64,000 nt of DNA from Ctena decussata. Its lineage: Eukaryota > Mollusca > Bivalvia > Lucinida > Lucinidae. Under the pieces are notes generated by a model. The model saw nothing but the letters and a program-made list of their open reading frames with translations. It was not told the origin of the DNA and made no database searches. The stretch lies in NCBI GenBank assembly GCA_963989385.1, contig OZ022512.1, positions 27,425,899 through 27,489,898 on the forward strand, written 5' to 3'. The position numbers and the translations under genes are program-made. Positions 15,401 to 45,400 of this stretch are shown in pieces. Numbering within the stretch: position 1 is the stretch's first letter; each line of letters starts with the position of its first letter.

Positions 15401-18400
15401 GTTTCGGAAGATGACTTACGTAGTAAAAGTGCTCTTTTGCTACCAAATTTTATCCAGTGGCTGTTCGGAGACTTTGAATTACACATAATTTACAGATTCC
15501 GATCATACGAAAAGGTGTAATGTTGAGAATATGTCACCTACCAATGATGTAATCTGTCGGCCTTACGGATGTATTTGGATTCTAGCGCCAACTATTCAAA
15601 ACTAGCCAGACTGAATCACTTGTAGCACCTATCACTCCAGTTACCTCAAAGTTAACACATACAGCGAGCCTCATACGACACATGCAAACGACATATGAGG
15701 TACCAAAAGGATCAATACTATAGATATCTGTACGTGTATGCCTGTTGACGGGTATCAGCAATTTTGACCCATTTGACACACCATACGTGTAGCTGGCATG
15801 GCGCGTGACATCGACAATTTCTAATGAGTTGGAACAGGGCTCTCGATCACCGAAATTTGGGGCCGAAATTCGGCCCCATTCCCAATGCCAAAAAGTATCT
15901 TTTTTTCCCAATTCCAGATGAAAAATTCCCAATTTGACTAAGCCTATTTGGTCCAAGAATAATGCAGTTGTATCAGTGCAAAATGGATTAAAAACCAGCT
16001 AAAACTAAAAATGTTAACATAATTTATAACTTAAAACTCAGGAAGCGATTACATTTTCAATCACGATCGTCATGTTTTGTTACTGGTAACCGGTACCGGG
16101 TTTTCTCATGTACTGTTAGAGTTACTTCCCTTCCATTAGAGGGCGAATAGCCTAGCGATTTTGGCTGCATATTATTATATGTTAATATTTTCTTTGCTTT
16201 AAGGGCCAATATTGTTGTGGTTAACAATATTTTGACTTATTCTTTAATTTAAAGCCTTCCAATGCTAAAATTTGATTGGAGCTTCCACCTATGGTGGATG
16301 ATTCAGCTGTTTTTGTGTTTCATACCTGAATCAATTTTGACAGTCATTTTCGGCCATATCCAAAATCACTAACGGGATTACCGGGAAGTCCAAGAGTTAG
16401 AACAGTGATAGTGACATACCGTGGATGGACTGAAAGTTTTGTGGTGTTCTGCATTGTGACAGTCCACTTTCTTTCAACCTCACATAAATATTGTACTTTG
16501 TTCTACATAGCCAGTCATGGCAGTAGAAAAGATTCCTGTTCCATAGTAACAGCAACCTAACCAGGGCTACTGAGGTGTCTGAGAGTAAGTTTTTTGACCT
16601 CTGATATATTGTTTTCAGGGATATAGGGAATTCAATCTGAAGGAAGAGGCATATTTATCTAAGTACAATATATTTTCAGGGGTTTTCCTAGGGACCAAAA
16701 TGCCATTGGCCTGCAGGGCCACCTGGCCGGAAAATCTACTGGCCATCCAAATTTTCAACTGGCCCGACTATTTTTCCAATGCGGAATATACAGGACTAAT
16801 TATATTCAATAAAATAAACCACCATTAAAATGTATGATCCTTTATCACCAAATATCTAGTCTTGTCTGTAGTTGTTTAGTATCCGAATGTTTAAGATAGT
16901 TAACCCATTAAGCCAAGTCTGATACCTCATGATATAGCCATGAGGTTTTCTTGTAATTGGTGCATCCAGTAACATAAGAGCCAACTGTGTCCCTAGTTTT
17001 ACAAATTGAACATTTCATTCCTAGGGCATCATCAAACTCGAGCCACTTCAGGCACTTGAATTCAGTCAGCCACCCAGGTTGAAAGTACCGATGGCGGCCA
17101 GACTGTTCGTATTTGTCTCGGGTGGCTTTTTTTCTTCATCGGACTTAAGCAGCTGTTTTTGTTTTTTAGATGGCGGGGGTTGAAATAAGCGCAGAAGTCC
17201 TTTGGGGTCCATTTTTTTACATGTGACCTGCGATTCATCCCCAAACTTCATCGGTCGGCCATATTGTCTATTTGCAATGCGAGGAGAAATTTCATTGGAT
17301 TAAACATTTCTGATCGTCCAATGAAATCATCTGTAGCAAAACGAAAGTAGACTGGTTTTCAGATGGTTTTCGCTTCAAGTTTGAAACAAACTGAATGTCC
17401 CGAAATGACTCCCCGAAATTCAACTGGCCTGACGGACCTGCTACAGTGGGATTTAACTGGCCCGAGGCCAAAATCAACGGGCCCGGGCCAACGGACCCGC
17501 GCTTAAAAAAACCCCTGTATTTTGCAACAGAAATATTGAACAGAAATTATTAAACATCCAAATTGTTCTAGAAATTGCATAAAAATGATCAGTGAATGAT
17601 GATATGCATACTTACCACAGCTTACAATGGATAAATTCTAAGTTTTAAGTCTAATTGAATTATGCTTACTTAGTTCAAAGGTACTTAAAACCTAGAGTGT
17701 TATACTGTTGTCATATTGTAACACTTTTTGGGTAGGTCCCGGTCTTGTCTCCAATTTGAGAGTGGCAAGATAGGGAAGTTGCCAGTTCAAAGGAAAGAAA
17801 GAAAAGCTCAACACACACAAATAGTTTTGTTATTATCTAATCTCCCAACTATTTAATAAAATTTATTATGATTCACATTCTGCTATGTCTGCTTATAGTC
17901 CAGCTCCGGACCGAAATTATTTCAGAAACAAAGTTTTTAAATTGAAACTTGTTTCTAGGTATTTTCCGGCCCAGAGCTGGGCTACTGCTTATTGACTGGA
18001 TTCCTCTGAAAATATGACAGTACCATATGTAAGTTTTGTTGGTCTGACAAGGTAAACTTCACACATAAAATAATGTAAATTTTCCCAATTTTAGGCAAAA
18101 ACGACGCTATTTTTCCCAATTCGAAAGGCCCCGGTCCCATTCCCAAAATGGGGTGTGAGAGCCCTGTGGAATGACTCACAGGCAGCACCTCCCGATCACA
18201 GTCAGCACCATTCACAAAAAGGATGACTCTTATTATACCCCCGGCATATGAAGTATGTCGAGGGGTATATAGTTTTCGTCTTTCCGTCCGTTCGTCCGTC
18301 CGTACGTAAGTTAACATTTGCGTTAAAGTTTTGCGTTAAGTTTTTAGCTCACCTGAGCCAGCGGCTCCGGGGGAGCTTATAGGATGGTAAGGCTCCGTTG

Positions 18401-21400
18401 TCCGTCGTCCGTCCGTCCGTCGTCCGTCCACACTTTCAAACAACTTCTCCTCTGAAACCGCTGGGCCGATTGTAACCAAATTTCATATAGAGCCTCCTGG
18501 GACCTTAGGAACGAAAAGTTGTTCAAACGGTCCTGGTCACATGACCAACATGGCCGCCATGCCCATATATGGTAAAAACCTGAAAAAATCTTCTTCTCCA
18601 GAACCAATAGGGCGATGGCCTTGAAACTTGGTATGTAGCATCGGGTACACGAGTACTACCAAGATTGTTCAAATTATGACCTTGGGTTGACCTTGACCTT
18701 TTTTACGGTAAGGTCAAATTTGCTTCCTTATGCTTTTATATGGCAAAATGCTGCAACATAAGATATCTTGGAAACTGTTGAATATTTTGGCCTAAAAATT
18801 GGTACATACAGTTATCTTAATGACTACATGAAGATTTATGAGTTCAAGAGGTCAAGGTCATTCTTTGACCTTTGCCCCAGAACTCTCATATTTTGATAAT
18901 ATCAAACAATCTCCTCAAAAACAACTAGGCCAATTGTAATTAAATTGCATATAGATCCTCCAGGGGTTGAGGGAATGAAAATTTGTTCATACGGTCCATG
19001 TCACATGACCAACATGGCCACCATGCCCATATATGGTAAAAACCTTTAAAGATCTTTTTCTCCAGAACCAGTAGACCGATGGCCTTGAAACTCGGTATGT
19101 AGCATTGGGTACTCAAGTACTATCAAGATTGTTCAAATTATGACCCTGGGTTGACCTTGCCCTTTTTTACGGCAAGGTCAAATATGGGAAAATGCTAGCA
19201 CATGAGATTTCATGGTAAGTTTTGAAGATTTTGGCCTAAAAATTGGTATATACAGTCATCTTAATGAGTACATGAAGATATGTGAGTACAAGAGGTCAAG
19301 GTCATTCTTTGACCTTTGACCCAGAAATCTCAAATTTTGACAATTTCAAAGAATCTGCTCTAAAACCACTGGGCCAATTGAAACCAAATTTCATATAGAG
19401 CCTCGAGGGGTTGAGGGAATGAAAACATTTTCTAACGCTCCTGGACACATGACCAACATGGCTGCCATGCCCATATATGGTAAATACCTTTATAAATCTT
19501 CTTCTCCAGAACCAATTGACCGATGGCCTTGAGACTTTGTATGTAGCATTGGGTACTTGAGTACTATTAAGATTGTTCAGATTATGACCTTGTGTTGACC
19601 TTGACCTTTTACAGCAAGGTCAAATATGGGAAAATGGTAGAACATAAGATTTCATGGAAAGTTTTGAAGATTTTGGCCTAAAAAATTGGTATATACAGTT
19701 GTCTTAATGAGTTCATGAAGAATTATGAGTACAAGAGGTCAAGGTCAATTTTTTACCTTTGATCCAGATCGCTCATATTTTGACATTTTCAACCATTTCC
19801 TCAAAAGCCAAAGGGCCAATTGCGAACACATTTCATATAGAGCCTCCATGGGTTGATTGAATGAAAAATTTGTTCAAACGGTCCAGGTCACATGACCAAC
19901 TTGGCCGCCATTACCACTTATGGTATAAATCTTTAATATTTTTCTTCTCCAGAACCAATACACCTATGGCCTTGAAACTTGGTAAATAGCATGGAGTACT
20001 AGAGTACCACCAAGACTGTTCAAATGGTGACCTTGGGTTTACCTTGACCTTTTTTTGCGGCATGGTCAAATATGGGAAAATGCTAGAACATAAGATTTCA
20101 TGGAAAGTTTTGAAGATTTTGGCCTAAAAATGGTATATATGGTTGTCTTAATGAGTACATGAAGATTTATGAGTACAAGTGGTCATGGTCATTCTTTGAC
20201 TTTTGACCCAAAACTCATATTTTGACAATTTCAGACATGATAAGTAAAAGCCACCTTGCCAATTGTTCAGGTCAAATCCTTAAACTGCTTGTCTGTAATT
20301 TGCGATTATATATGTACATTTGACTGAAATAAAATATGTTTAAACCAATTGTTCAGGTGAGCGATTCAGGGCCTCATGGCCCTCTTGTTTATTTTGCTTC
20401 TTTTAACCAGAACTTGTTCATAATGGCTTATCATTTTAGTTAAGGATACAAACTGATTAATTTTCAATATCTGGATGCTGCTGCTGGCCTGAGGTCAAGG
20501 TCACAGACTTTGAAATTTGTACAATAGCTGTGTTAAGTTTTTTGTTAAGTTTCTGCTTTTGCTCTGTTTTTCTGAAAGACTTAACTGTAACTTGTTCATA
20601 TGTGCTTAGTGTTAGTATTGGATAGATACATATTAGTTTGCATCATCTTGATGCTGCTGCTGACCTAAGGTCAAGGTCACAGACTTACAAATTTGTATAC
20701 CATTTGCCTTAAAGTTTTGTGTTCAGTTAAATTTTATGCTTATATTTTGAATATACTTGCATAGAACCTTTTGCAGTGCTACTAGGTTTACTTCTAGATT
20801 AAAACGGATTAATTGACATCATGTAGATGCTGCTGCTGACTTAATGTCAAGGTCACAGACTTTGAAATTTGTATACTCTTTGCATTAAAGTTACATGTTA
20901 ATTCGTATTTATTTCCTTATAGTTTGAATGTACCTCCCAAGAAAATTTTTGTCATGCTACTAGATTTACTTCTTGGATGAAACTGATTAGTTGACATCAT
21001 GTGGATGCTGCTGCTGACTTACTGTCAAGGTCACAGACTTAGAAATTTATGTAAATTTGTGTTGAAACTTTGTGTTAAATTTATTTATTTTTTTTTTTTG
21101 CTAATATAAATTTGAAATGGAATCTTTTGGCTGTTGTCTATAGGCCTTTCTTTGGGTTTGTTATATATTGTCCACCTGTCTGTTTGTCTATTTTTTAATA
21201 TTTGCTTTAAAGCTTTGTATTAAATTGTTGTCACCCGACGTAGGCGGAGGGGGACTATAAAAATGACCCTCGTCCGTCCGTGTGTCAGTCCGTCCGTCCA
21301 TCCGTCCTTCCGTCCGTCCGTCCGTCCGAAATCTTGTCCCCGCAACTCCTCCTACATCTTTCATCGGATTGATTTGAAATTTTACAGATTGTATTCTTAT

Positions 21401-24400
21401 GATATGAAGATGTGCATGTGGTTTTTGATTTTTGTTTCGGCCATTTTTGATGGAGTTACGGCCCTTGCTGACTCAGACCTTGTCCCCGCAACTCCTGCCA
21501 CATCTTTTATCAGATTGACTTGAAATTGTGCAGAATGTTTCATCATGATCTGAAGATGTGCATGTGATTTTGGAATTTCAATTGCCCTATATTTTACAAA
21601 GTTATGGCCCTTTGTCGTTTTTGGCATTTTCTGTCCGTCCGAAATCTTGTCCCCGCAACTCCTCCTACATCTTTCATCGGATTGATTTGAAATTTTACAC
21701 ATTGTATTCTTATGATATGAAGATGTGCATGTGGTTTTTGATTTTTGTTTCGGCCATTTTTGATGGAGTTACGGCCCTTGCTGACTCAGACCTTGTCCCC
21801 GCAACTCCTGCCACATCTTTTATCAGATCAACTTGAAATTGTGCAGAATGTTTCATCATGATCTGAAGATGTGCATGTGATTTTGGAATTTCAATTGCCC
21901 AATATTTTACAAAGTTATGTCGTTTTTGGCAATTTTCCAACTTTTGAACCGTTTGACCGAGTGAGCTGAAATTTAGTATGCTATTAGCATTTGGTAAATT
22001 GAGTATTCTGATTATTGTTAGGATATGCTAAATTTATTAGTGACAGAGTTATTCCCCTTTCATAGATAATAGACATTCACTTAAAGGTAAAAGGATAACT
22101 CAAGAACTATTCATATTAATGGGCTGAATCTTCATAAATGCAATGTTCATTTTTCATCAGATTCATATAAGGGGGATTATGGCCCTTGTTATTTTGTTAT
22201 TGGGTATATGGTCTTGATGTTTAGTCATTCTGTAAGGGCCTAAAGTTTCAGTAACCTGATTTTACACACATACGCCCAGTCCTGAACTTAAGTATTTTAT
22301 AACCTCATAGAGGCCCAGTAATTGGGTATATGTCTTTGCTTATGCTTCAATTATTATTTCCTTACCAGATTCTGTTGTACACATATTTTCTGGTTTTGGC
22401 CATACAGTTACTCTGAAACGGAATAAAGGGCTGCAGTTTGTGACACATTTCAAACGTCGGGTGACACTTGGCCGATGGCCTTTTATTTTGATTAGGCGGT
22501 GGCACTGGCCGGGGGTATACGTGAGTCCCTGCTCACTTGCTGTAGTTTATAAAGCGTTCATTTGATAATGATTCTAACACTGAATTAGGCAGTTAATTTT
22601 CAGCAACTGTGTGAAATTCATCAATGTTTGACTAACAGAAGTGGAAAGAAAATGGGCAATAACTCTTTGAGATGGTGTTTTAGGAATTAACATGGAATTT
22701 CATGATATACGCATTATGATAGCTTAATGGAACGTTGAATGAATTATTCTTTCCAGGCAGTGGTTAAGAGAAGATGTCAGTATTTCCAGGTGCAATAAAT
22801 GTTCAGATTTTCACTATATTTGCTTACATCACAGGCACCTCCACACCATTGCAGGCACCTCCAGCTGTTGTTTTGAAGAATCAAGCTTTATTTGTAGTCA
22901 GTCGACATTTTTATTTGGGCAAGGAGGTTACCTTAACATCAGTGTGCCTTGAAAAACAGATTCCTGTGCAAGATCACTGCATTTAAGACCAAAAACGGCC
23001 GAATTCTTCATGTTTTGAGTACTGTGGGCTGACATCAAAGCCACTTCAAAAGTCGTATCTTTGGTTAATATGGAAAGTTCTGGAGGATATGATGTGTGAC
23101 AAAACTTTATATCTATAAGGGTCGAATAGCACTTTTTGATTTTTAATATACTCCCTGGGTATTAATTTACTTTGTCAAAAAAAGGAATACCTACCGTTTG
23201 TTGTCATTTTTTTGACATTCACAGGCAGCTCCAGATGCCTGTCACAACTTTTTATCGGTACGGAGGTACCTGTGATAGTTTACCAGGCGTGAAGAATCAA
23301 AACCATTAAATTAAGGTGATCGCTATTGACAACCGGTTGTCAATAGCCAATATTCGCTATTGACAACCGGTTGTCAAAAGCGAACGTTCGCTATTGACAA
23401 CCGGCACAAACATTGCCTATCAAATTAAGATGGGTCAGTTAAAGACCTATGAATTTTGAAGAAATAAATTGGTAACATGAAATTTTATACTGTATTTCAC
23501 AAGAAAATGTGAATATGGAGATGTCAAGATATGACTTCAAGTTTTTGTTTCATGCTTTTTGGAACTTTTATTTGAGCAGATATCAACATAGTATATGAAC
23601 AGCAAAGGCATAAATGATGTTTTCTTCTATAGATATTTCTTCAAAACTCTAGATAGTTAAGGTTTGATAGTAATTCATTTCACTTTTTTATAAATTCACG
23701 TTTGCCAAAGAATATGCTACGACTGAAATCCTGTTGAAAAGGCTGTAAAACTCCAAATAGCCATCCATGCGTCATTTTAGAGTAGATAATGTCAGAGAAT
23801 GTTACTGCATATATATTTTATTTAAACGTTCAAAAGGAAATAGGTCCAAGATTCCATCCAGTATAACACTGGATTGACATTTCAACTTTCTATATAGATA
23901 TCCTGTCTTAACAAGAGAGGTGTCTCAAAACAAATGATGTAGAACCTGATCAGACTACTCCTGACTGTAACAGGAGGTGGTTTGACATGGCTGACTGTCA
24001 CTGAAGTGAATAACTTCAGTGAAAGTCAGCCACATCACAGTGATGTGGCTGACTGTCACTGAAGTTGTTGGACATGGCTGACTGTAACAGGAGCTGGTTT
24101 GACATGGCTGACTGTCACAGGAATTGGTTTGACATTGCTTACTATCATTGGGGTTGGGTTGACACGGCTGATGGTCACTGAAGTTGGGCTGGCATGGCTA
24201 ACTGTCAAAAGAACTGGTTTTACATAGCTGACTGCAACAGGAGTTGGTTTGATATGGTTTACTGTACTCTTCGGCCAACATGAATATTTGAAACTAGAAA
24301 ATGTGTTTCTGGAACACTATGCCCCCAACCGTATGCTTGCTTCTAAAGAAGGTTCATCCCATAATGTTTAAGTAAAATAGGGGTTTTAATCGGTTCATCT

Positions 24401-27400
24401 ACATCTTAGCCGGTAACTGTATTCCAACTAGACTTGAAAATGTGTTTATGCCCCCAACCATATGCTTGCCTTTATAGAAGGTTCATCCAATAATGCTTGT
24501 ACCTTTGTACCATAGGCTTCAATGCACTAAGTAGAAAAAGGGGCTAAACTCGGTCAAAAATTTACGAATTGCTTTCAAAAGTTAAGCAGGTCATCTACAC
24601 CTTGGGCAATATCTTCCTGCAAAAAATCATGATCCTAGCATCAGGGGTTCTCCAGATATTTTGTTCACAAGGTTCCATAGGCAAATAATGCACTAAGTTG
24701 AAAAAGGGGAATAACTCAATAAAAAATCCATGATTTTTTTCAAAAGTTAATCAGGTCATCTACGCCACAGGCAGTATCTTCCTGCAAAAAATCATGATCC
24801 TAGCATCAGGGGTTCTCCAGATATTTTGTTCACAAGGTTCCATAGGCTTACAATGCACTAAGTTGAAAAAGGGGGCATAACTCATTCAAAAATTCACCTT
24901 TTTTTCTCAAAAGTTAATCAGGTCATCTACACCTTGGGCATTGTCATCCTGCAAAACCACATGATCCTAGCATCAGGTGTTCTTGAGATATTTTGTTCAC
25001 AAGGTTCCACAAGCTAAGTATAAAAAGAGAAATATGGGAGTGACTGAAAAACCCCAGCTTTACCCTTGAACATTGATCCCGACTGGACGTAGTGTGTGGA
25101 GCTGATAGATCCAGTGGAGTTCCTTTCTCCGACGGATGGCAGTGCTTGTTTCACTGTCGGGGTCTGATGCTAAGATTTCGATAATTTGAAATTTCATATG
25201 TTGTGGGGAATGATTGTTTAGGTTAAAATGGTTAGCGACCGGTGTGTCCCTTTGATTGCGGGTGTCACGTTGGTGCTCTGTCATTCTGACCTTTATTTCT
25301 CTTTTAGTTTCGCCGACGTATTGTTGTTTGCAAACTTGACATGTTATCAGGTAAATAACATTTCTTGTTGTGCAGTGTCCTCTCAGTGCACATTTATATT
25401 TGTACTTTGTGTACGTGCTAGTGAACACTTTAGATTTGTTCATGAATGTGCAGTATTTGCAATTTACCGTAGTGCAATCTTGTACTGGGTTTTTGTGCGT
25501 CATTCCTGTTTGTCCGCGTGTTTTGGTACTAAATTCCGCTCTGATGAGTGTTTGAGATAATTTACTTCCTATTTTGAAGGCAAAAATTGGAAGGTTTGCG
25601 AACATGCGTGGGTGATGTATGTTGAGGATTGGCCACATACGTACTACTGCTTTTTATGCCCCCAATTTCGGAGAAATTGTGGGGGCATATTGGTTTGGGT
25701 CTGTCCGTCTGTCCGTCTGTCATCTCAAGAACCGTAAGAGCTAGGAGCTTGAAACTATATACACATGATCAGTATGAAAAATAAGCGAATACGTGTTTTT
25801 TCTTTTTTCCGCGGGTCACATATTTCAAGAGTTATGCCCCTTTTTAGACTTAGCCTGTGGAACCTTGTGAACAAAATATCTCAAGAATCCCTGATGCTAG
25901 GATCATGAGGTTTTGCAGGATGAGAATGCCCAAGGTGTAGATGACCTGATTAACTTTTGAAACAAATTCGTGAATTTTTGACCGAGTTATGCCCCTTTTT
26001 CGACTTAGTGCATTGTAAGCCTATGGAACCTTGTGAACAAAATATCTCAAGAACCCTTGAAGCTAGGAGCATGATTTTTTGCAGGAAGATACTGCCTGTG
26101 GTGTAGATGACCTGATTAACTTTTGAAAAAAATTCGTGAATTTTTGATTGAGTTATTCCCCTTTTTCGACTTAGTGCATTGAGGCCTATGGTACAAAGGT
26201 ACCCTTACATATAGTCAAGAACAATAAGAGCTAGGAACTTGAAACTTTATACACATGATCAGTATGGAAAATAAGCAGACCCGTATTTTTTTATTTTTCC
26301 GCCGGAAATGTATTTCCAGAGTTATGCCCCTTTTTCGACAGCCTGTGGAACCTTGTGAACAAAATATCTCAAGAGCCCCTGATGCTAGGATCATGAGGCT
26401 TTGCAAGATGAGAATGCCCAAGGTGTAGATGACCTGATTAACTTTTGAAACAAATTCGTGAATTTTTGACCGAGTTATACCCCTTTTTCGACTTAGTGCA
26501 TTGTAAGCCTATGGAACCTTGTGAACAAAATATCTCAAGAACCCCTGAAGCTAGGAGCATGATTTTTTGCAGGAAGATACTGCCTGTGGTGTAGATGACC
26601 TGATTAACTTTTGAAAAAATATGTGAATTTTTGATCGAGTTATTCCCCTTTTTCGACTTAGTGCATTGAGGCCTATGGTACAAAGGTACCCTTACATATA
26701 GTCAAGAACAATAAGAGCTAGGAACTTGAAACTTTATACACATGATCAGTATGGAAAATAAGCAGACCCGTATCTTTTTATTTTTCCGCTGGAAATGTAT
26801 TTCCAGAGTTATGCCCCTTTTTCGACTTAGCCTGTGGAACCTTGTGAACAAAATATCTCAAGAGCCCCTGATGCTAGGATCATGAGGCTTTGCAAGATGA
26901 GAATGCCCAAGGTGTAGATGACCTGATTAACTTTTGAAACAAATTCGTGAATTTTTGACCGAGTTATGCCCCTTTTTCGACTTAGTGCATTGTAAGCCTA
27001 TGGAACCTTGTGAACAAAATATCTCAAGAACCCCTGAAGCTAGGAGCATGATTTTTTGCAGGAAGATACTGCCTGTGGTGTAGATGACCTGATTAACTTT
27101 TGAAAAAAAATTCGTGAATTTTTTATCGAGTTATTCCCCTTTTTCGACTTAGTGCATTGAAGCCTGGGGTACAAAGGTACCCTTACACATAGTCAAGAAC
27201 AATAAGAGCTAGGAACTTGAAACTTTATACACATGATCAGTATGGAAAATAAGCAGACCCGTATTTTTTTATTTTTCCGCCATTCATGTATTTCCAGAGT
27301 TATGCCCCTTTTTCGACTTAGTCTGTGGAAACTTGTGAACAAAATATCTCAAGAACCCCTGATGCTAGGATCATGGGGTTTTGCAGGATGAAAATGCTCA

Positions 27401-36400: not shown

Positions 36401-39400
36401 CATGGGCGATATAGTTTTCAATACCAATTGGAACTTGTGTGAGTTAATCCCGCAGGTGCAAGACCGCTTTCCGCGGATTTCTTGTTTTTGTTGAACTTGC
36501 AGTCAGCGAGACATAGTCGCCCCCAGCCATTGCTGAAATTTAATAGCAATGTGTATATGGTTGAGATGGCATGTCAGATATAAAAATGATTGCTCTCCCT
36601 TACTTTTGGAGTTATGTCCCTTTGGTTACTTTTTGAAGCCTTTCTTTTGCATGCCATAACTAGATTTATCTGATGGGATATCTTGATGCAAATTTATAGC
36701 AATGTGTATAAGGTTGAACTGGTATGTCACATATAAGAATAATTGCTTCCTCTTCCTTAGTTTTGGAGTAAGCTCCCTTTGTTTAGTTTTTAAGGAGATT
36801 CTTGTGCATGCCATAACTTTGTAAACCTGATTCTTGTGTGCGGCGTCAGTACATAAGCCTTTGGAATGTCTTGAAACTTAAATAACAATGTGTATTTGGT
36901 TGAGACAGTATGTTGCATATGATAATTATTGTACCCGCCTTCTTCTGTTTGGAGTCCCTCTGATTGATTTTTTAAGGCTATTCTTGTGAGAACCCTAAGT
37001 AGGTTACTGTTTGCAATATCTTAATGAAACTTTATGGCGATGAAGATGAGGTTGAGATGGTGCGTTCATATAAGAATTAGTGCCCCAATTTAATACTTAC
37101 TATCAGAGTTACATCTCTTTGATTATTTCTTCGACTATGTTTTTGCACACAATTACAAGGTAATTGTTTGGAATTATATCTTGATGACTGTGCCTTAGCT
37201 TGAAACTGTGGGTGGAGTATGGGAATGGTTGCTTCCTCATACTTAAATTTGAAATTCATCCCTTTGTTTAGTGTATACAGACTATTCTGGTACCGTGTGT
37301 GGCTGATTGTCAGGGCAATAGGTCTGTCCCAGGTACTGACTGGGGCTGAAACTCACTAAAATATATTGCTCAGCTTGTGGTGGTCTTTTCTTCATGACAT
37401 TGAAGTTCTGTCTATGTATTTATTAAAGACCCATGTTTTCATTTGAATTACTAAAAATGTAAACCAAAGGATCCTTCTCAGTTTTGCCTACCAGATCGGT
37501 ACTAATTTATTGTTGTTAAGTTGTTGTTCAGTGTCCCACTAAACAATATTTCAGTCATATCGAGACATTGCCTCCAAATTAGTAGGACTTTTACCTAACC
37601 TGGGGCCGTATTCATAAAGCTACTTAAGTCGTTGCTATGCGGTTGCTAAGGCTAAATACCTATAAAGGAGATTCCCTACAACTATGAAATTTGGTCTGGA
37701 GGAACAGTCTTTGTAAGACTGTTCCTCCAGAGCAAATTTCATAGTTGTAGGGAATCTCCTTCAAAGAAATTTAGCCTTAGCAACAGCATAGCAACGACTT
37801 AAGTCGTTTTATGAATACGGCCCCTGAAATAAATGATACTCAGATTCTGCTACAACTACTATCATATCTGCTGTAGAGGCACCTGGCAGCCCGTCTTTAA
37901 ATGTATTTCGCGGGATCCCAGATAAGGTACTTGTAGCTTTTAAACGCACATAAATTATAGGAAAATATACTGTAGCAGGCATTGTCAATTCATCTGTTCA
38001 TCTAATTATTCCTTGATAGTTGCCACTTCTTAATTGGAGTGACCAAAAACGTTTGATATGGTGTAATAATTTTAAAGGTTGGATACCATGACAGAATATG
38101 GAAGAATGTTTTGGATTTTGGCCCCACCAGTGGGGTCATTGTATGGTCAGAAAATCAGAAAAATTCCTAATTTTCCTCCTAATAATGAACTTATTTAAAT
38201 CAGATTGGTATGGAAATTTATGATTGTAAGATAACACAGCTTTTGTTTTGATGCCTCTAGGGGCCCCACTGAGCGTATAATTTAAGTTATGTATGTTTTA
38301 TATGCAGGCCATCTCCGCAGCGCCAACGAAGAATTACCGAGCTACCAATGCCCCCGGTGATTGATGATGCTGACCAAGAGTATGAGGTATCCCCAGATCA
38401 GGATGGTGCTTCAGACAGAAAGGATGGGCAAAAAGTGAAGAAACCAAGGTACTGGAAAAGCTCACAATATGACAGTTTGTGCACAAAGCAAATTAACCAT
38501 TTCTGGTGTTTTCATTAGACTGACACATTTGTATTTCATTCTAAGTACAGTCGAACTTCGGTAGTTCGAAGTGCCAGGGACTCCCCATTTTACTTCGAAC
38601 TATCCGAATTTCGAAGTTACCGAGTCGGCTATTTCCGTAAATAACAGAAATGTCCGAACTCTACCGTGACTTTGTGATCGCGTCGAATGTGTGAAACGCA
38701 CCTGTATTGTGGTACATGTAATTACATCTTCTGTACGGTGTGAAAGAAGATGCAAACAGATAATTTGACTCTCTTCTTCCCTTATGCCTTCAGGAATCGG
38801 ACTGTTAATGACAAAAAAGAAACAAAATAACCTCTTTAGCTGGAATTTTAATGACCGATAATTTGGACAGTTTGATAAAAAGAAGTGGGCTTTTCTGCCA
38901 CAAACGAACAACAAACAAATTATGGTGGCACATAGATTTTCGTTAATATTAAATTCAATTTACATTAATCCTTACCTTGAAGTCAGGATGCTGTATCTTT
39001 GAACACTCCCAGTTCAAACACAGATAAAAAGAATAACGCCGTCTTCCACCCAAATTCAATTTTAATCGCATGCTAAAGACATCTTTAATTAAGTCACAAA
39101 AGAAGAGCATTTACCTGTATGTAGTAATACCTCGCCAACGCAAGCTTAACTGCTATTGAAACATGATTAACGTCATCACGCGTCATTGGGCTTCTGCATG
39201 ATCTTTCAGCATGGCTGACGGAACCTTGCGGCAATAATTGCGACTTCGAATTTTAGGAGGTATTTCTAATGGAAATTGCAGTTCGGGACTGAATCCGATT
39301 TTTCGAACTATCAATGTTCAAAGTTGCGGAGGCAAATTTGTATAGAATGCATAGCAAAAAATTTGGGACCTTCAGAAGTAATTGAAGTTTCCGATGGATT

Positions 39401-42400
39401 CGAAGAATTGACGTTCCAACTACCGAAGTTTGACTGTACTAGCCATGCTCTCTCTCATCATAAACAGCATTAAACAGCATTTTATCAAAATTCTTTTTGT
39501 CAATAAAGGAATAGAATTTGTAGATTTTCCAAGTATCTATTAGGCTGTGACTGGTGCTCTACCTGTTTACTAAACAAATACCAAAGTACCCATACTCGAG
39601 AGCCATACTTTGTTGCCTATTAGGTCAACTTTAATTTCAACAAAACTTGTTATTTATCACCTTGATATATGTGCAAACAACCATGAGACTGCAAGGATTT
39701 CAAATTGTTCCTCTAAATATTTCTTGCCTCTACTTGTCCCAGGCATGTTCTGTCCTCTGTGTGTGTGTGTGTGTGTATGTGTGTGTGTGTGAAGTCATCA
39801 TTTCCATCAGGGCCTTTTCGGCGGGGGATATAAATTCACCGAATTTGTTTTACACAACTGGCTTACGGACCCCAATAAGAGCACATTATGGTATTTTTTT
39901 AGGCATGTTACTGTAAGTGCACATTTCTAATGTTTATCCCTTTGTTTGCTTGTTTATAAGAACTGAAAATGGTAGGGTCAAGTCGGGTAAATTTTGACAG
40001 CAGGTAAATTCAGTGACAGTGACATTGTTTCCTTTGTATATCAGTTGTTTGGAATTAAAACAAAATCAACTGGGCAAACAGTGAAAATCCTGATGAGACA
40101 GCTCATCATGAGCCATCTCATCTGTTTTTTCCGGGCCGCGTAGCGCAATCGGTAGGGCACCTGACTCATAAGTCAGAGGTCCTGGGTTCGAAACCCGGTC
40201 TGGCCAAATACTTTCGTTTCTCCTTCCGCTGATTCAAGAAGGGCAGTTGTCAGCTACTGGCGAAAGTATGTGCACTTAGTACTGGTTAACCGCTTAGGAG
40301 GTCTAAGCCTGCCCAGGAATAGTGTGGTTAGGTTAACTGACCGTCCCGACATGACCATAGTTGTTTACAGTGGACGTTAAGCAATAAATCAATCAATCAA
40401 TCTGGATTTTCACTGTTTGCAGTGGTATGTCCGAATTTACCCGCTGTCCGAAGTTACCCGACTTGACCAAATAGAACCTTTCAGCTTTCACTTGCAAAGC
40501 TTCTCTATGACCATGAGCAGCTTTTCTCTAAGTTTAACCACTCATTTTGTTTCCTTTAATATATAATAATTCTTTGAAATTTGAGCATTAAAGAAAGACA
40601 GTTTACTACAAGTTCTTGCTGCCATTTTGAGAAAGTTCAGTGCACAGGGCACTAATAAGGTTGATTATGGTAGTTCATTTGTAACAGTACTTATGGTAGA
40701 CATATAATTCTGTAAAATTCATATACATGAACTGTTTTGTAGACTTTGTTTCCAAAGACGTCACAATGAGAGGGTAAAAGGAGACTGGGGTGAGAGATGT
40801 GTAGATCTCTTCAATATCATTGAGATCATTGGAGAAGGTACATATGGCCAGGTTTATAAAGCAAAGGATAGTCTTACAGGTAAAAATTTGCTTTTATATT
40901 TCTTGCAGGATTGTGAAGATGCATGCTTTTACAGTCCTGACAAGTTGACATTATGATATCAGAAAATATCGTCCATTCACATTATAATGAAATAATATTG
41001 TGAAAAAAAGAAGGCATAAAAAGTTATCATAATATATCGATTCTTTTTTATCCCCCGACCGAAAGGTTCGGGGGATATAGCGATGAGCCTGGCGTCCGTC
41101 CGTCCGTCCGTAAACACTTTCTTGTCCGCTCTATATCTTGAATACCCTTTGGAATATTTTCATGATACTTCACTGTTATGTAGAACAGGTCATGACGATG
41201 TGTCGCGTACAAGAATGGTAACTCTTGCTTTTGTAATTTTTGAATTATCTCCCCTTTGGTGATTTTTTGGCAGATTCGTGTCCGCTCTGTAACTTGAATA
41301 CCCTTTGGAATATTTTCATGATACTTCACAGAAATGTAGAACAGGTCATGACGATGTGTCGCAAACAAGAATGACAACTCTTGCTTTCTTACTTTTTGAG
41401 TTATTTCCCCTTGATAGTTTTAGGTGTGATTTTTTGGCAGATTCGTGTCCGCTCTATAACTAGAATACCCTTTGGAATATTCTCATGATACTTCACAGAT
41501 ATGTAGAACAGGTCATGACGGTGTGTCGCGAAAAAGAATGACAACTCTTGCTTTCTTACTTTTTGAGTTATTTCCCCTTGATCATTTTAGGTATGATTTC
41601 ATGTCCGCTCTATAACTTGAATACCTTTTGGAATATTTTCATGATACTTCACAGATATGTAGAACAGGTCATGACGATGTGTCGCGAACAAGAATGACAA
41701 CTCCTGCTTTCTTACTTTTTTAGTTATTTCCCCTTGATGGTATCCCCCAACCGAAAGGTTCGGGGGATATAGCGATGAGCCTGGCGTCCGTCCGTCCGTC
41801 CGTCCGTCCGTCCGTAAACACTTTCTTGTCCGCTCTATATCTTGAATACCCTTTGGAATATTTTCATGATACTTCATAGTTATGTAGAACAGGTCATGAC
41901 GATGTGTCGCGTACAAGAATGGTAACTCTTGCTTTTGTAATTTTTGAATTATCTCCCCTTTGGTGATTTTTTGGCAGATTCGTGTCCGCTCTGTAACTTG
42001 AATACCCTTTGGAATATTTTCATGATACTTCACAGAAATGTAGAACAGGTCATGACGATGTGTCGCAAACAAGAATGACAACTCATGCTTTCTTACTTTT
42101 TGAGTTATTTCCCCTTGATAGTTTTAGGTGTGATTTTTTGGCAGATTCGTGTCCGCTCTATAACTAGAATACCCTTTGGAATATTCTCATGATACTTCAC
42201 AGATATGTAGAACAGGTCATGACGGTGTGTCGCGAAAAAGAATGACAACTCTTGCTTTCTTACTTTTTGAGTTATTTCCCCTTGATCATTTTAGGTATGA
42301 TTTCATGTCCGCTCTATAACTTGAATACCTTTTGGAATATTTTCATGATACTTCACAGATATGTAGAACAGGTCATGACGATGTGTCGCGAACAAGAATG

Positions 42401-45400
42401 ACAACTCCTGCTTTCTTACTTTTTGAGTTATTTCCCCTTGATGGTTTTAGGTCTGATTTCGTGTCCGCTCTGTAACTTGAATACCTTTTGGAATATTTTC
42501 ATGATACTTCACAGATATGTAGAACAGGTCATGATGATGTGTCGCGAATAAGAATGACAACTCTTGCTTTCTTACTTTTGGAGTTATTTCCCTTTGATGA
42601 TTTTAGGTGTCCGCTCCATAGCTTGAGTACCTTTTGAAATATTTTCATGATACTTCACAGATATGCAGAACAGGTCATGACAATTTGTCTCATACATGAA
42701 TGATAACTCTTGCTTTTAGACTCAGTGAATTATTTCCCTTTGGTAGTTTGAGCTGCTGTTTGAGTCTCTTCTCCATAACTGTATAACCCTGGCCAGCTCC
42801 AGAATTTGAATAGCCATGTACCTTTTAGAATATTGATGATCATGCTGTGATATCTTATCAGTGTTCCTAACTCTCTCTTACCCCTCCACATTCCCATGAC
42901 CCCTCCTGCACCCCCCCCCCCCCCCCAAAAAAAAATAAATTTTTTTTCCAGATTTGGATTCTTTGTCCAAATTCACTTACTAGAGAACTCAAAATTAGAT
43001 TTGTAGGGCTTGTACTTTAGAAGTTATTCACACATTTTGAAAGTTGAATGTATCGTATGCTATACATTTGTGTATATGGTGGCTGTTTGAGATATTACCT
43101 CTTTTTAGCAGTCAAGCATACTGTTTTAGTCTGAGTGTTATATAATCATGCATCTGTTAACAGTTAATGTCAATCAGAAGCATAAAAGAACGACAATATA
43201 TTACTAATATGTGTTTTGAAGTGCACCCTTTTTACCAAGGCCCATGGGGGTCTTCGGTCGGGGGATTTGCCATCTCCTCTGATGGCTATTTTTTTATGAC
43301 CCAGTGACGATAGTCAGGGGGCATGAAGATTTGCTCTTGTCCATCCGTCTGTCCGTTCGTCTCACTTTATGGTATAGAGTTTGTGTAATCAACTCCTCCG
43401 ACAGTTTTCAGTGGATCTTTTTCAAATTTTGCATACATGTTGTGGACATATTGAAGATGTTTTTGCTGAGCTAAAATTAATTTTGACAGAATTACAGCCT
43501 TTTGAATGTAGTCATTTTAGGCAAATGTTTGAATTGTAGGGTAAGTACTTTGTGTAATCGGCTCCTCTCACCACTTTAAGTGGCTGTTTTTCAGACATGT
43601 TTACTTGTTGTGGACATAATGAAGACATGCATATGGGTTTTTGATGGGGAAAAAAATAATTTTGATGGACTTAAACTTTTAAACATACTTATTTTGGGCA
43701 GCATTTCTGCACTGTAAGATATGAAGTTTGTGTAACGTTTTAGGGATGTACACATGTCTGGTGACAGGTGCTGCACGGGGGCATCATTAATGTCTTACAG
43801 ACACAATTTTCTAGTTTTACCATATTTATCTAGTTATAAGATGAAGGTTACAAAACAATCCCAGAACTCTAGATCTGTCTGGCAAGATGGATCTAGATCT
43901 TTTTTTGATTGTTTTTGAAGAGAAAACCTTATCTCATCCCCAAATTACAAAAGACTGATTCACATATTTGGGTACTTTTGGAGAGATGAATGGATGACCT
44001 GCGATTTTATGTCCTTTTCAACAGTATTTCAGTTATATCAGGATGATGAAAAGGTGATAATGTAAGGCTGTATTCATTGGAACCCAGTTGACTGTGTTCA
44101 ATTGAACCCAGTTCATGATTGAAAAGAATTCCACATCCGGGAATCGCTCTTGGGACTGTAGATCAGCAGACCAGTGCTTAACCAGTTGAGTTCCCCAGGC
44201 TCCTCACGTTTGGAGAGAAAGGGCCCTGTCTTATAAAGTTATTTGAATAAATGCAGTTTCAGAGTAAAATATATACTGTAAAACACTTATATTTGGCAGT
44301 CACTTTATTTTGGTGATATTGGCGAAGAAGAAGAAAATCGCCAAATTAAAATGCCGCCAATATAAACTGTTTGTGAAGAAAAAAACTGTCATAAAGTCTA
44401 TAATTTATTGTTCTTCTATATTATCAAAGCCACTACACATCATGTAAATGAGAACAAGACAAACCAAAGCATCCAACAAAGGAGAAGAAATTTTAACAGA
44501 GTGTGAAAATGTTAATTAGACATTCCTTACAAATTAGTACCTACATGTAAGCCAAGTTGATTTAATCAGGAGGAACTCTAAAATTTATTTACTTTAAACA
44601 GTTTTATTAGGCAAAATTTAACATTATAATAGAAATGATTGTAATTTCTGTATTCAACCTCAGACTCAAGTGGCCCATATGATGTCAGCAGAAAACACTA
44701 TTTCATCAGAAATCACAAATACGCTAAAATAAAAATCCGCCAAAAGGTCCGTCTATTGAAACCGCCAAATTTTGCTGCCGCCAAATATAAGTGTTTTATA
44801 GTACATGTATCTATGTTTGCAGATGAATTGGTAGCACTGAAGAAGGTACGGCTGGAGAATGAAAAAGAGGGCTTCCCAATAACAGCTGTGAGAGAAATAA
44901 AGATCCTAAGACAGCTCAATCATATGAATATTGTGAACTTGAAGGAGATAGTTACAGACAAACAGGATGCCATAGATTTCAGGAAAGACAGAGGTATAGT
45001 GTGCATTAGCTGAGCCACGAGGAAATGGTGTCACATGGTATTTGCATACAGTGAAAATGCAGATCAGCATACACAGCCATGCACTGTATGCCAGAAGTAA
45101 CAATTTCAGCTCAACAGTTGTATGCTATTTAGTGCAGTTTAATTGCTCCAGATAGAAAGCAACTTTCCAGCAACAGTAAATTTCCTGAACTGAAAATTTG
45201 GAATCGTTTAAAACCATTTCTTTGTTGTCATTTTCTATGGTAAATCAGTATAGACAACAACTTTAAGATTTAGTTGAACAAAATGCACTTAAAGAAAATG
45301 TGGAACAATGATTTTTTAGCTCACCTGAGCCAGAGGCTCCGGGGGAGCTTATAGTATGGTCAGGCTCCGTCGTCCGTCGTCGTCCGTCCGTCCACAATTT

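Follow-up and report, generated by a model that had tools for sequence, protein, structure and literature searches.

The repeat families A to G in the 64,000-nucleotide stretch of Ctena decussata DNA analysed here (the window) are very probably HINEs (Helentron-associated interspersed elements), a non-autonomous kind of rolling-circle transposon that would be moved in trans by the Rep-helicases of Helentrons in the same genome, and their common blueprint would be that of a Helentron minus its ORF; we give this reading a probability of about 0.9. The families have the anatomy of Helentron relatives, the two sampled for insertion sites (A and E) sit in T-runs without a consistent target duplication, and elements with A-type and E-type ends elsewhere in the genome carry genes preceded by leader arrays of tandem modules. 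A sequence-only reading of the window had proposed a single old mobile system, constant in layout but with a sequence that turns over. That proposal largely holds, given the Helentron anatomy, the family-private ends and the module profiles, most of which align far above shuffles and nearly all in the sense orientation; it does not hold in that not all families are sequence-unrelated, and the place of family C is doubtful. The same reading could not say whether the system had a name: it does, as Helentron/HINE (PMC4067079, PMC7492417) and, among the Pearl elements of bivalves, as CvA/CvE/CvG.

Structure of the repeat families in the window

Every copy named in the sequence-only reading was located, and several of the elements are nested. 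Family C begins at 18234..18345 (+) with subTIR TATACCCCCGGC, a hairpin (equalled by 0 of 300 shuffles), a (CCGT)n tract and the first part of its module array, which is interrupted by copy A1, a CvA-type HINE with 444-bp trimer modules at 18346..20389 (+). The A1 ends are AGCTCACCTGAGC and, on the 3' side, CAGGTGAGC followed by GGGCC-TCAT-GGCCC, CTTG and a T-run. The 178-bp module array of family C resumes past A1 (20390..21228, +) and is interrupted again by the family B HINE (21229..22490, +), which has a 13-bp subTIR TGTCACCCGACGT, the 3' hairpin GGCC-GAT-GGCC and an interior of 146/313-bp modules followed by modules like those of the autE leader described below. The 3' end of family C (22491..22545, +) consists of CCGGGGGTATA, the hairpin GTGAG..CTCAC and TTGCTGTAG plus TTT, and the family C 5' end and the stretch that stops at 22519 together make up a perfect subTIR of 12 bp.

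The family E HINE at 25655..28080 (+), with an 11-bp subTIR TATGCCCCCAA, 166/491-bp modules and the 3' end GTGTTT-CAT-AAACAC ATTTTCTAG plus T-run, lies inside a Penelope-like RT/GIY-YIG ORF. Other family E sequence comprises a module fragment (24506..25034, -), three tandem 164-bp units (30985..31525, -), each reading as the 5' end, the microsatellite and the start of the first module, and a 3'-truncated copy (32371..32690, +). Further copies of family A are A2 (45318..47016, +; 11-bp subTIR, hairpin AGGACC-AAT-GGTCCT, CTTG and T-run), the subfamily A4 (60137..61230, +), whose subTIR AGCTCACCAGA is accompanied by a corresponding change at the 3' end, and A3 (34853..35193, +), an A4-type 5' end with one module; there are also module fragments (4354..4993, +) and a 3' fragment whose end was read from the sequence (33906..34070, +). 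The family G HINE (35358..36488, +) has subTIR CACCTGCG of 8 bp, modules of about 190 bp, a hairpin, CTTG and a T-run, and adjoins a D-like array of 157-bp modules, called H (36491..37330, +). Family D (41049..43292, +) has a 14-bp subTIR ATCCCCCGACCGAA and, at about 41742, a further 5' end inside the element, part of a tandem duplication that is anchored at the 5' end and in which 681 of the 699 positions aligned are identical. Copy F2 (43295..43815, +) abuts the 3' T-run of D and joins an E-like 3' end to B/G-like modules; family F is otherwise represented by the 5' part of F1 (611..830, +), with a 58-bp duplication close to the 5' end, and by module fragments at 10330..10850 (+) and 13795..14175 (+).

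The terminal features stood up well. Stem-loops are present at all eight 5' ends examined, in stretches chosen by eye, and no more than 6 of 300 mononucleotide shuffles match their stability. The (CCGT)-like tract, sought with a permissive pattern, occurs at 11 of 11 ends checked; the sequence-only reading had placed it within about 40 nt, and it starts slightly farther in, 40-68 nt from the first base. The mirrored ends reported for A to E are perfect subTIRs of 10 bp in A1, 11 in A2, A4 and E, 13 in B, 12 in C and 14 in D, matched by only 0-1 of 200 shuffle pairs. They are family-specific: in a 9 by 9 cross table the diagonal values are 10-14 for A to E, 8 for G and 6 for F2, and the other cells range over 4-8 once the A block is set aside. 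The 8 bp of G are weak, being reached by 5 of 200 shuffle pairs and by several pairs that lie off the diagonal and outside the A block. In F2 no subTIR rises above chance, with 120 of 200 shuffle pairs scoring equally well. Not listed in the earlier reading is a 3' hairpin just ahead of the T-rich end, which is present at all nine 3' ends examined and is weakest in C (28 of 300 shuffles equally stable). In an end comparison across families, where A2, A4 and C were cut a few bases short on the 3' side and their scores for that side are therefore slightly low, the 3' ends of E and F are alike; their 5' z of 2.5 carries no weight, because unrelated-looking pairs reach 4.2 (A4-D) and 3.6 (B-D).

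Insertion into T-runs

A genome search for family A gave 970 first-look candidates and 39 scored places besides those of the window, of which 20 were fetched; 19 of these have both ends. All 19 are flanked by at least three Ts on the 5' side and at least two on the 3' side. Identical non-T flanking bases number 0 in 13 copies, 1 in four, 3 in one and 5 in one; the last two copies count against the absence of a duplication, and across the sample there is no consistent target duplication beyond the Ts in family A. Family E supplies a visible empty site: the GIY-YIG part (25060..25653, -) and the RT part (27869..30763, -, its final stretch being E sequence) of the Penelope-like ORF, itself outside the HINE system, read through if the target had 1, 4 or 7 Ts. 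No homologue of this ORF was found among 7987 candidates scored. Insertion in T-runs is thus observed in the two families sampled, A and E.

Gene-bearing Helentrons in the same genome

The sequence-only reading knew of no transposase that fits, and suggested looking for an autonomous copy with a protein. Such copies exist outside the window, where Rep-helicase Helentron proteins are encoded by elements with A-type ends and probably by those with E-type ends. A coding copy within the window was rejected, since 20 of its 22 ORFs that are 110 aa or longer were scanned and contained no Rep or helicase; the other two (25222-25560 + and 57391-57843 +) lie outside the elements. The Rep domain PF14214 is present in at least 150 places in the genome, all 150 of the places scored, from 680 candidates, being above the cut-off. 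On both strands of 30 fetched loci, the residue preceding PH in the Rep motif is S at 22, L (the Helitron type) at three and A at one, and four have no motif. The S of the Helentron type is found in autA and autC, two of the three long-ORF lineages that we followed: autA with A-type ends, autE with E-type ends and autC with C-like ends.

The four A-type gene-bearing copies are more than 99% identical in the parts compared, and among the three autA copies aligned at the 5' side, identity of 99.0-99.6% starts at most 8 bp from the A-type 5' end. The autA protein matches Helitron_like_N (4e-27) and PIF1 (1.6e-18) and has the Rep motif FYRVEFQQRGSPHIH; no DDE transposase was found in the scanned parts. 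By our own reading its C-terminal SDHRLVY may belong to a putative apurinic-like endonuclease; the scanned part of the protein, which ends about 80 aa before the C-terminus, gave no endonuclease match. The A-type 3' end of autA lies at C2:27267953. With a query across this end, in which CTTG ends at 239, 37 of the 39 other matches stop at query positions 241-253, one at 215 and one at 264. When the query's own place is included, 19 of 40 matches have a listed Rep 9.6-11.5 kb upstream on their own strand, compared with 0.14 expected. Because about 200 bases upstream of the end are included, the query favours gene-bearing copies; it therefore ties the end to Rep and is uninformative on HINEs. 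A1 is only 87% identical to the autA leader, so the exact element that moved A1 is unseen.

The second lineage, autE, has a 12-bp perfect subTIR and a 3' boundary in common with a second copy (98%), about 5.5 kb past a listed Rep on C18. In autC the 3' end is about 40 bp past the ORF stop and is similar, without identity, to that of family C; the boundary recurs in a second copy (97.6%), which is known from two short stretches and is still within the array where it was read. The 5' ends of autE and autC come from one copy each. In all three lineages a leader array of modules lies between the 5' end and the ORF, and all module matches are in the sense orientation; the autE leader consists of an E-type array and then a D/H-type array. 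HINEs are also nested in these elements, with an E-type passenger in four of four autA copies compared and a HINE-A in the autE leader. Two candidate termini were rejected. The E-type 3' end that follows the autA ORF comes with a 5' end of its own and so belongs to the passenger, and the A-type end past the autC ORF is that of a nested HINE. A limited search found no gene-bearing partners of B, D, F or G. Ends in common with an autonomous Helentron, one of the marks of a HINE, are accordingly found for the A and E types, with a similar end for C; subTIRs, another mark, are present in A, B, C, D and E, weak in G and absent from F2.

Relationships among the tandem modules

Tandem modules were recovered by TRF at 444 (A), 146/313 (B), 178 (C), 156 (D), 166/491 (E) and 190 bp (F), in line with the earlier reading; those of family G are missing from the TRF list for the window. 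The proposed three-word skeleton, searched on both strands with mismatches allowed, occurs 11 times against shuffle means of 0.15 and 0.24. All 11 occurrences fall within elements and in the element's sense, and none was found in C, D or A4.

The families had been described as sequence-unrelated, and here the earlier reading fails: the cores of B, F and G are relatives, as are D and the array at 36.5-37.3 kb. Module profiles stand above shuffled controls for B, D/H, E, F, G and within A, with C doubtful. The alignments, nearly all in sense, link B, F and G with E and with D/H, and the A sub-modules with each other. D and H are linked at z 31.5. The links B-F (16.7), B-G (11.3), B-E (10.9) and D-G (6.4) have values reached in none of 200 column shuffles, and for these four pairs the reverse strand gives -1.4 to 1.7. 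Weaker links are E-F (3.6), E-G (2.9) and D-E (2.3). The family C module is at best weakly linked (Aa-C 3.4, Ac-C 3.2, Ab-C antisense 3.0), and the antisense pairs at z of about 3 or more are Ab-Ac (4.2), Aa-I (3.2) and Ab-C. Family I, a 145-bp array at 31.7 kb, has no sense-strand link to the other modules and was left out of the system. Between unlike clusters, where tandem copies are not independent, there are 38 sense and 0 antisense module matches at E<=1, with 5 outside elements. The resemblance among modules is in part homology, the membership of C being doubtful.

Comparison with known elements

The Cg_HINEs of the Pacific oyster have a tandem core of 138-181 bp in fixed orientation (PMC7492417), and they share with the present families a 5' subTIR with an adjacent inverted repeat, a GTCY-type microsatellite in several, a 3' subTIR, a palindrome and T-rich sites without target duplication (PMC7492417). 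In the portion of that paper available, they are linked to no autonomous element, the origin of their cores is left open and some cores are called unrelated, whereas in the present genome leader arrays occur in gene-bearing elements whose ends are of the A and E types, and alignments join the cores of families that differ in their ends. The likeness to Helentrons and HINE/DINE-1 (PMC4067079) extends to S before PH in the Rep motif, the helicase domain (in autA), the subTIRs, the 3' stem loop and TT insertion; the available part of that description contains no gene-bearing element with modules arrayed between its 5' end and its ORF, and such a leader array looks new as far as the literature searched shows.

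The Pearl family comprises CvA, CvE and CvG (PMC5874043, PMC5139131, PMC11136912). One scallop CvA primer matches the family A 3' end at 18 of 20 aligned bases (20356-20375 in A1). The second, core primer has no match above chance in the window; CvA is known here from its primers; its core repeat, given as 156 bp (PMC5874043), counts as a resemblance, and the trimer of 444 bp in family A as a difference. One primer for the BIV160/Cg170 satellite family (a BIV160 primer, PMC5139131) aligns to the A4 module at 60375-60397 with one gap and one mismatch, equalled by none of 60 shuffled primers; the second has no match above chance, and ungapped searches with three mismatches found neither. In viral contigs there are no matches to the A 3' end, 49 stretches for the loose 5' pattern and two for the module word, and 12 module profiles run on the viral-contig loci gave one weak match (E 0.084). 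Rfam returned only two tRNA matches, and a literature search with sequence words gave 16 papers, no title among them being on bivalves.

Proposed origin of the modules and mechanism of movement

We propose that the HINEs are moved in trans by the Rep-helicase of gene-bearing Helentrons of the same genome, which presumably recognises the 5' and 3' subTIRs and the 3' hairpin and would insert the element between Ts without target duplication. A HINE could arise from a Helentron by loss of the ORF, which would leave the 5' subTIR and stem-loop, (GTCY)n, the tandem-module leader, the 3' subTIR, the hairpin and the Ts. The origin suggested for A and E may extend to B, C, D, F and G. Modules lie upstream of the ORF, in a single orientation, in those gene-bearing elements that were followed; they would diverge by substitution and be reassorted among elements with different ends, as in F and the autE leader.

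The cores resemble a leader that belongs to the element itself, since in three of three gene-bearing lineages followed the array comes after the 5' end and before the ORF. Tentatively, and at somewhat less than even odds, we suggest that the modules are an ancient cis-acting Helentron leader, perhaps a promoter or a second-strand or rolling-circle replication signal, and that all the bivalve HINE cores linked in this analysis, and by extension BIV160/Cg170-type satellites, descend from it, freed by ORF loss.

It is possible, if rather doubtful, that the modules were instead captured, as prior satellite DNA that entered HINEs and Helentrons independently, the leader arrays being later acquisitions; this 'filler' scenario is discussed in PMC7492417. 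Cores are evidently exchangeable, as F compared with E, B (B-type then autE-leader-like) and autE (E-type then D/H-type) indicate, and related flanks with unrelated cores have been reported (PMC7492417). Against capture, the place and orientation of the array are constant in all three gene-bearing lineages, which are few, and the sense-biased alignment across differently ended families is easier to understand as an inherited leader. Fusion of a HINE-A lacking its 3' end to a position upstream of a Rep-helicase gene, the pair then being mobile together, would concern the autA lineage alone and is unlikely: the HINEs are dense and mutually nested, as in autA and the autE leader, but autC and autE have an equal layout with other ends, and the patterns used gave no A-type 3' end between the autA array and ORF. 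Convergence or base composition as the source of the skeleton, with AT-rich words spaced much as nucleosomes are and no homology, is very unlikely. The weak E-F, E-G and D-E links, the doubtful C and the array at 31.7 kb without a sense link are compatible with it, but the B-E, D-G, B-G and B-F links with their flat reverse strand and the absence of antisense matches between unlike clusters count against it, and pure convergence is rejected on a signal that is nearly all sense. Pearl elements were reportedly first described as MITEs, and inverted repeats do occur at both ends, but ordinary cut-and-paste MITEs with terminal inverted repeats have a negligible chance of accounting for elements whose 3' inverted repeat is subterminal and followed by a hairpin, which in family A lack a consistent target duplication and whose gene-bearing relative autA has a Rep and a helicase domain and, in the parts scanned, no DDE transposase; this class was rejected.

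Gene-bearing versions with the modules ahead of the gene hint at the source of these satellite-like repeats. Which autonomous element moves bivalve HINEs, and whether their cores are captured or intrinsic, are both posed as open questions in the available part of PMC7492417, and both become directly testable in the Ctena decussata genome, in which A-type and E-type Helentrons have long open frames and leader arrays. If the leader origin of the modules is true for bivalves in general, the leader of a mobile element would be the source of a long-lived satellite family.

Gene-bearing Helentrons and their leader arrays

The search for an autonomous copy with a protein, which the sequence-only reading had proposed, led to Rep-bearing elements with A-type and E-type ends in the same genome. 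At least 150 scored matches to PF14214 were found among 680 candidates, all 150 of them over the cut-off, and at many of them there are open frames of 2,000-2,982 residues. At 30 loci, Rep motif 2 is in the Helentron form (S before PH) in 22 and in the Helitron form in three; one has A and in four the motif was not found. The three Helitron-type Rep loci (L080, L081 and L082; RGLPHCH) exist beside the Helentrons.

Three gene-bearing lineages were followed outward: autA, autE and autC, with A-type, E-type and C-like ends, respectively. The autA lineage is represented by four copies and a 2,526-residue frame containing Helitron_like_N and PIF1 domains and, in its N-terminal part, a match to PF04843 (L115:2666-4099, E 1.1e-10), the herpes tegument N-terminal domain, which we take to have a cysteine protease fold. 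On the 5' side of three copies, identity of 99.0-99.6% starts within 8 bp of AGCTCACCTGAGCC, and with the A-type 3' end at C2:27267953 this element measures about 17.4 kb. A search with the sequence spanning that end, which favors gene-bearing copies because it includes approximately 200 bases upstream, produced 40 matches. Of the 39 besides the query itself, 37 break off at query positions 241-253 and the remaining two at 215 and 264; the CTTG ends at 239. At 19 of the 40 places, counting that of the query itself, the same strand has a Rep match from the list of 150 at a distance of 9,564-11,509 bp upstream, against an expectation of 0.14. A whole E-type HINE (non-autonomous Helentron) is present within the 3' part of autA in all four copies compared (C16 ~5150350-5151505; L119/L113, L125, L127, L129).

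The autE element on contig C17 has a perfect 12-bp subTIR, the family-specific inverted repeat of the element ends, followed by the hairpin GTGTTT-TAC-AAACAC and CTAG+TT; its 5' terminus is taken from one copy, and the pattern used showed no second 5' end in its tail. On C18 there is another copy (98% identical), whose end differs by at most 2 bp and which has a listed Rep match about 5.5 kb upstream. The Rep domain of autE is taken from the listed PF14214 match. The HINE copy E1 matches autE at 85% over 68 bp of the 5' end and 87% over 53 bp of the 3' end. The autC element on C7 is about 11.4 kb, with TATACCCCCCGC at the 5' end (one copy) and GCGGGGGGTAT about 40 bp past the ORF stop, then a hairpin and CTAG+TT. 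On C16, a second autC copy matches the 337 bp before the 3' boundary at 97.6% identity and diverges after it.

In all three lineages 3.6-4.7 kb separate the 5' end from the ORF, and this leader contains a module array in sense orientation. The autA array (+93 to +2270, sense) is the A-type 444-bp trimer, with 16 matches to its sub-modules Aa, Ab and Ac. The autE leader contains two sense arrays, the first E-type with a 453-bp unit (matches from +126 to +1453) and the second D/H-type (+1594 to +2200), H being a D-like 157-bp array at 36491..37330 of the window; a nested HINE-A comes next. The autC array (+95 to +1094, sense) is B-type with a 306-bp unit and is matched by the B profile at E 1.5e-15. 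The family A copy A1 matches the autA leader at 87% along 1,518 bp that begin close to the first base, and it matches 44 bp of the autA 3' end at 95%; thus a family A HINE consists of the leader and then the 3' end, with no gene between them. No other result of the analysis is as informative.

Element ends

The first 61 nt of nine elements were compared with their last 71-91 nt for inverted repeats, with 200 dinucleotide-shuffled pairs as control. Perfect repeats of 10 bp in A1, 11 bp in A2, A4 and E, 12 bp in C, 13 bp in B and 14 bp in D were equaled by at most one of 200 shuffled pairs, which bears out the mirrored ends claimed for families A to E. The repeat of G is 8 bp (5/200 shuffled pairs as good), and that of F2, between the first 61 nt and the 3' stretch, is not above chance (120/200). 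In a cross-comparison of all 5' ends with all 3' ends, A-E and G scored 8-14 with their own 3' end, and off-diagonal pairs scored 4-8 outside the A block and 7-11 within A1/A2/A4. The repeat contains CACCAG in the A4 subfamily where A1/A2 have CACCTG, and the 3' end of A4 has the corresponding change. The 3' repeat is subterminal, with the hairpin next and then CTTG, CTAG, GTAG or Ts alone. For stretches picked by eye, stability was equaled by 0-6 of 300 mononucleotide shuffles for the 5' stem (8/8 ends examined) and by 0-28 of 300 for the 3' hairpin (9/9). The (CCGT)n tract, here (GTCC)n, was present at all 11 ends under a permissive pattern; it begins 40-68 nt inside rather than within the 40 nt or so originally proposed.

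Insertion sites

Family E sits inside an ORF, with a reverse-transcriptase domain on one side and GIY-YIG on the other. When E is removed, the frame is open for 1090-1092 residues if the target had 1, 4 or 7 Ts (3.3 kb joined flank), and no other target duplication was seen in the joined flanks. The split element is Penelope-like (window 25060-30763, minus strand, RT and GIY-YIG domains), and its 5' flank was seen by eye to recur in inverted orientation at ~30.85-30.99 kb. In the searched genome of 1.658 Gb (245 contigs), 40 of 970 family A candidates were scored, and 20 were fetched of the 39 places besides the window's own. The full 3' end is present in 19 of the 20, and these 19 copies have a 5' T-run of 3-8 and a 3' T-run of 2-6; identical non-T flank bases number zero in 13 copies, one in four, three in one and five in one. 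The check for target duplications, run for A and E, gave T-run sites and no consistent duplication, and passages of PMC4067079 and PMC7492417 describe HINE insertion of this kind.

A1 and B are nested inside C. HINEs are also joined end to end (L075, L069, L124): an A copy stands head to tail behind another A (L075), an A copy is followed without a gap by an E-type 5' end, and the autC 5' end is immediately preceded by a C-like 3' tail. The terminal Ts of HINEs may be favored targets. A 3.0-kb A copy at L076 contains D/H-type modules on the opposite strand.

Module homology and reassortment

Module profiles, built from own-family copies only (4-14 per family), were compared in 66 pairs on both strands against 200 dinucleotide-keeping column shuffles. 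In sense, 14 pairs exceeded z 3 and the mean was 2.4; in antisense, three pairs did and the mean was 0.1. The highest sense values were D-H 31.5, Aa-A4 23.1, B-F 16.7, B-G 11.3, B-E 10.9, Aa-Ab 8.4, F-G 8.2 and D-G 6.4, followed by Ab-Ac 5.0, Ab-E 4.2, Ac-D 3.7, E-F 3.6, E-G 2.9 and D-E 2.3. The comparison with shuffled controls favors the proposed relationship for B, D/H, E, F and G and, in part, within A; the C module, with z 3.4 against Aa (1/200 shuffles equal), 3.2 against Ac (2/200) and antisense 3.0 against Ab, gives too little to call its kinship. The proposed division of the A module into three sub-modules is supported for Aa and Ab, is ambiguous for Ab and Ac (antisense 4.2), and Aa-Ac reaches just 2.1. 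The best value for family I was antisense, 3.2 against Aa; this 145-bp tandem array (window 31697-32301) is without the layout ends and without a sense link to other modules.

The B-E alignment has 53 identities in 94 columns, with GTTATGCCCCTT-like words in register. Across the window, 29.6% of which is elements, profile matches in other clusters at E<=1 numbered 38 in sense and none in antisense, and a further five fell outside elements; because tandem copies are not independent, the 38 do not count as separate events. At E<=10 the corresponding numbers were 84, 11 and 48. The two-word skeleton fell within elements in sense in 19/20 forward and 3/5 reverse matches (shuffle means 2.1 and 3.1), and the three-word skeleton in 11/11.

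Family F has B/G-type modules, yet its 3' end is nearest to that of E (z 4.3, 0/200); its 5' end score of z 2.5 is indecisive, since A4-D, for instance, reaches 4.2. After the B array come modules that match a gene-bearing E-type leader at 74-76% identity over 136 bp. The exchange of arrays as such is not new, because the review PMC12628747 already reports, for oyster, that distinct Helitrons carry arrays of one kind. D (41049-42440) and E (30985-31525) contain tandem duplications starting at the element 5' end, identical at 681/699 positions in D, as if copying had restarted at the terminus.

Other features of the window

A protein-kinase exon is found at 44.6-45.0 kb, and from its translation we take the gene to be CDK12/13-like. 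Together with the CvA-type repeat and the repeat families themselves, this exon gives the window (C15:27425899-27489898) the look of bivalve DNA. Four similar tRNA-headed repeats (~4438-4510, 13386-13458, 40134-40206 and 52182-52262) with the common 3' body CACATACTTTCGTTTCTCC... are apparently a tRNA-derived SINE; Rfam flags two of the four, and one interrupts an A fragment. Repeats of 33-34 bp on the palindrome GACAACCGGTTGTC are present at 2596-2708, 7267-7350, 23320-23404 and ~32695-32750 (three from TRF, the fourth by eye). Two MITE-like foldback repeats, ~37640-37820 and 47580-47800, were seen by eye to have a common TTCCTCCAGAGCAAATTTCATAGTTGTAGG-like arm.

Relation to known systems and a model for HINE origin

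The layout of these families is the HINE layout already described in PMC4067079 and PMC7492417. The latter names Pearl elements HINEs, finds TT sites, could not connect the Cg_HINEs with ten autonomous C. gigas elements whose Rep is of Helentron type, and leaves a captured versus intrinsic origin of the core undecided. The literature searched gave no account of an array in the leader of a gene-bearing Helentron. Because the layout is published and leader arrays were not found reported, we regard the HINE families as new members and the leader-array Helentron as a variant.

In our model, HINEs would have originated by loss of the ORF, and the Rep proteins of the gene-bearing elements would move them in trans; families B, C, D, F and G would be mobilized likewise. 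The array may be of use to the element, as a promoter or in replication. The window contains a CvA-type repeat, and according to PMC5874043 CvA is transcribed in the gonad and muscle of scallop; this agrees with the model but is no proof for the array. The leader array accounts for the blueprint common to families that look unrelated base by base, for the constant direction in which the arrays lie and for much of the module homology.
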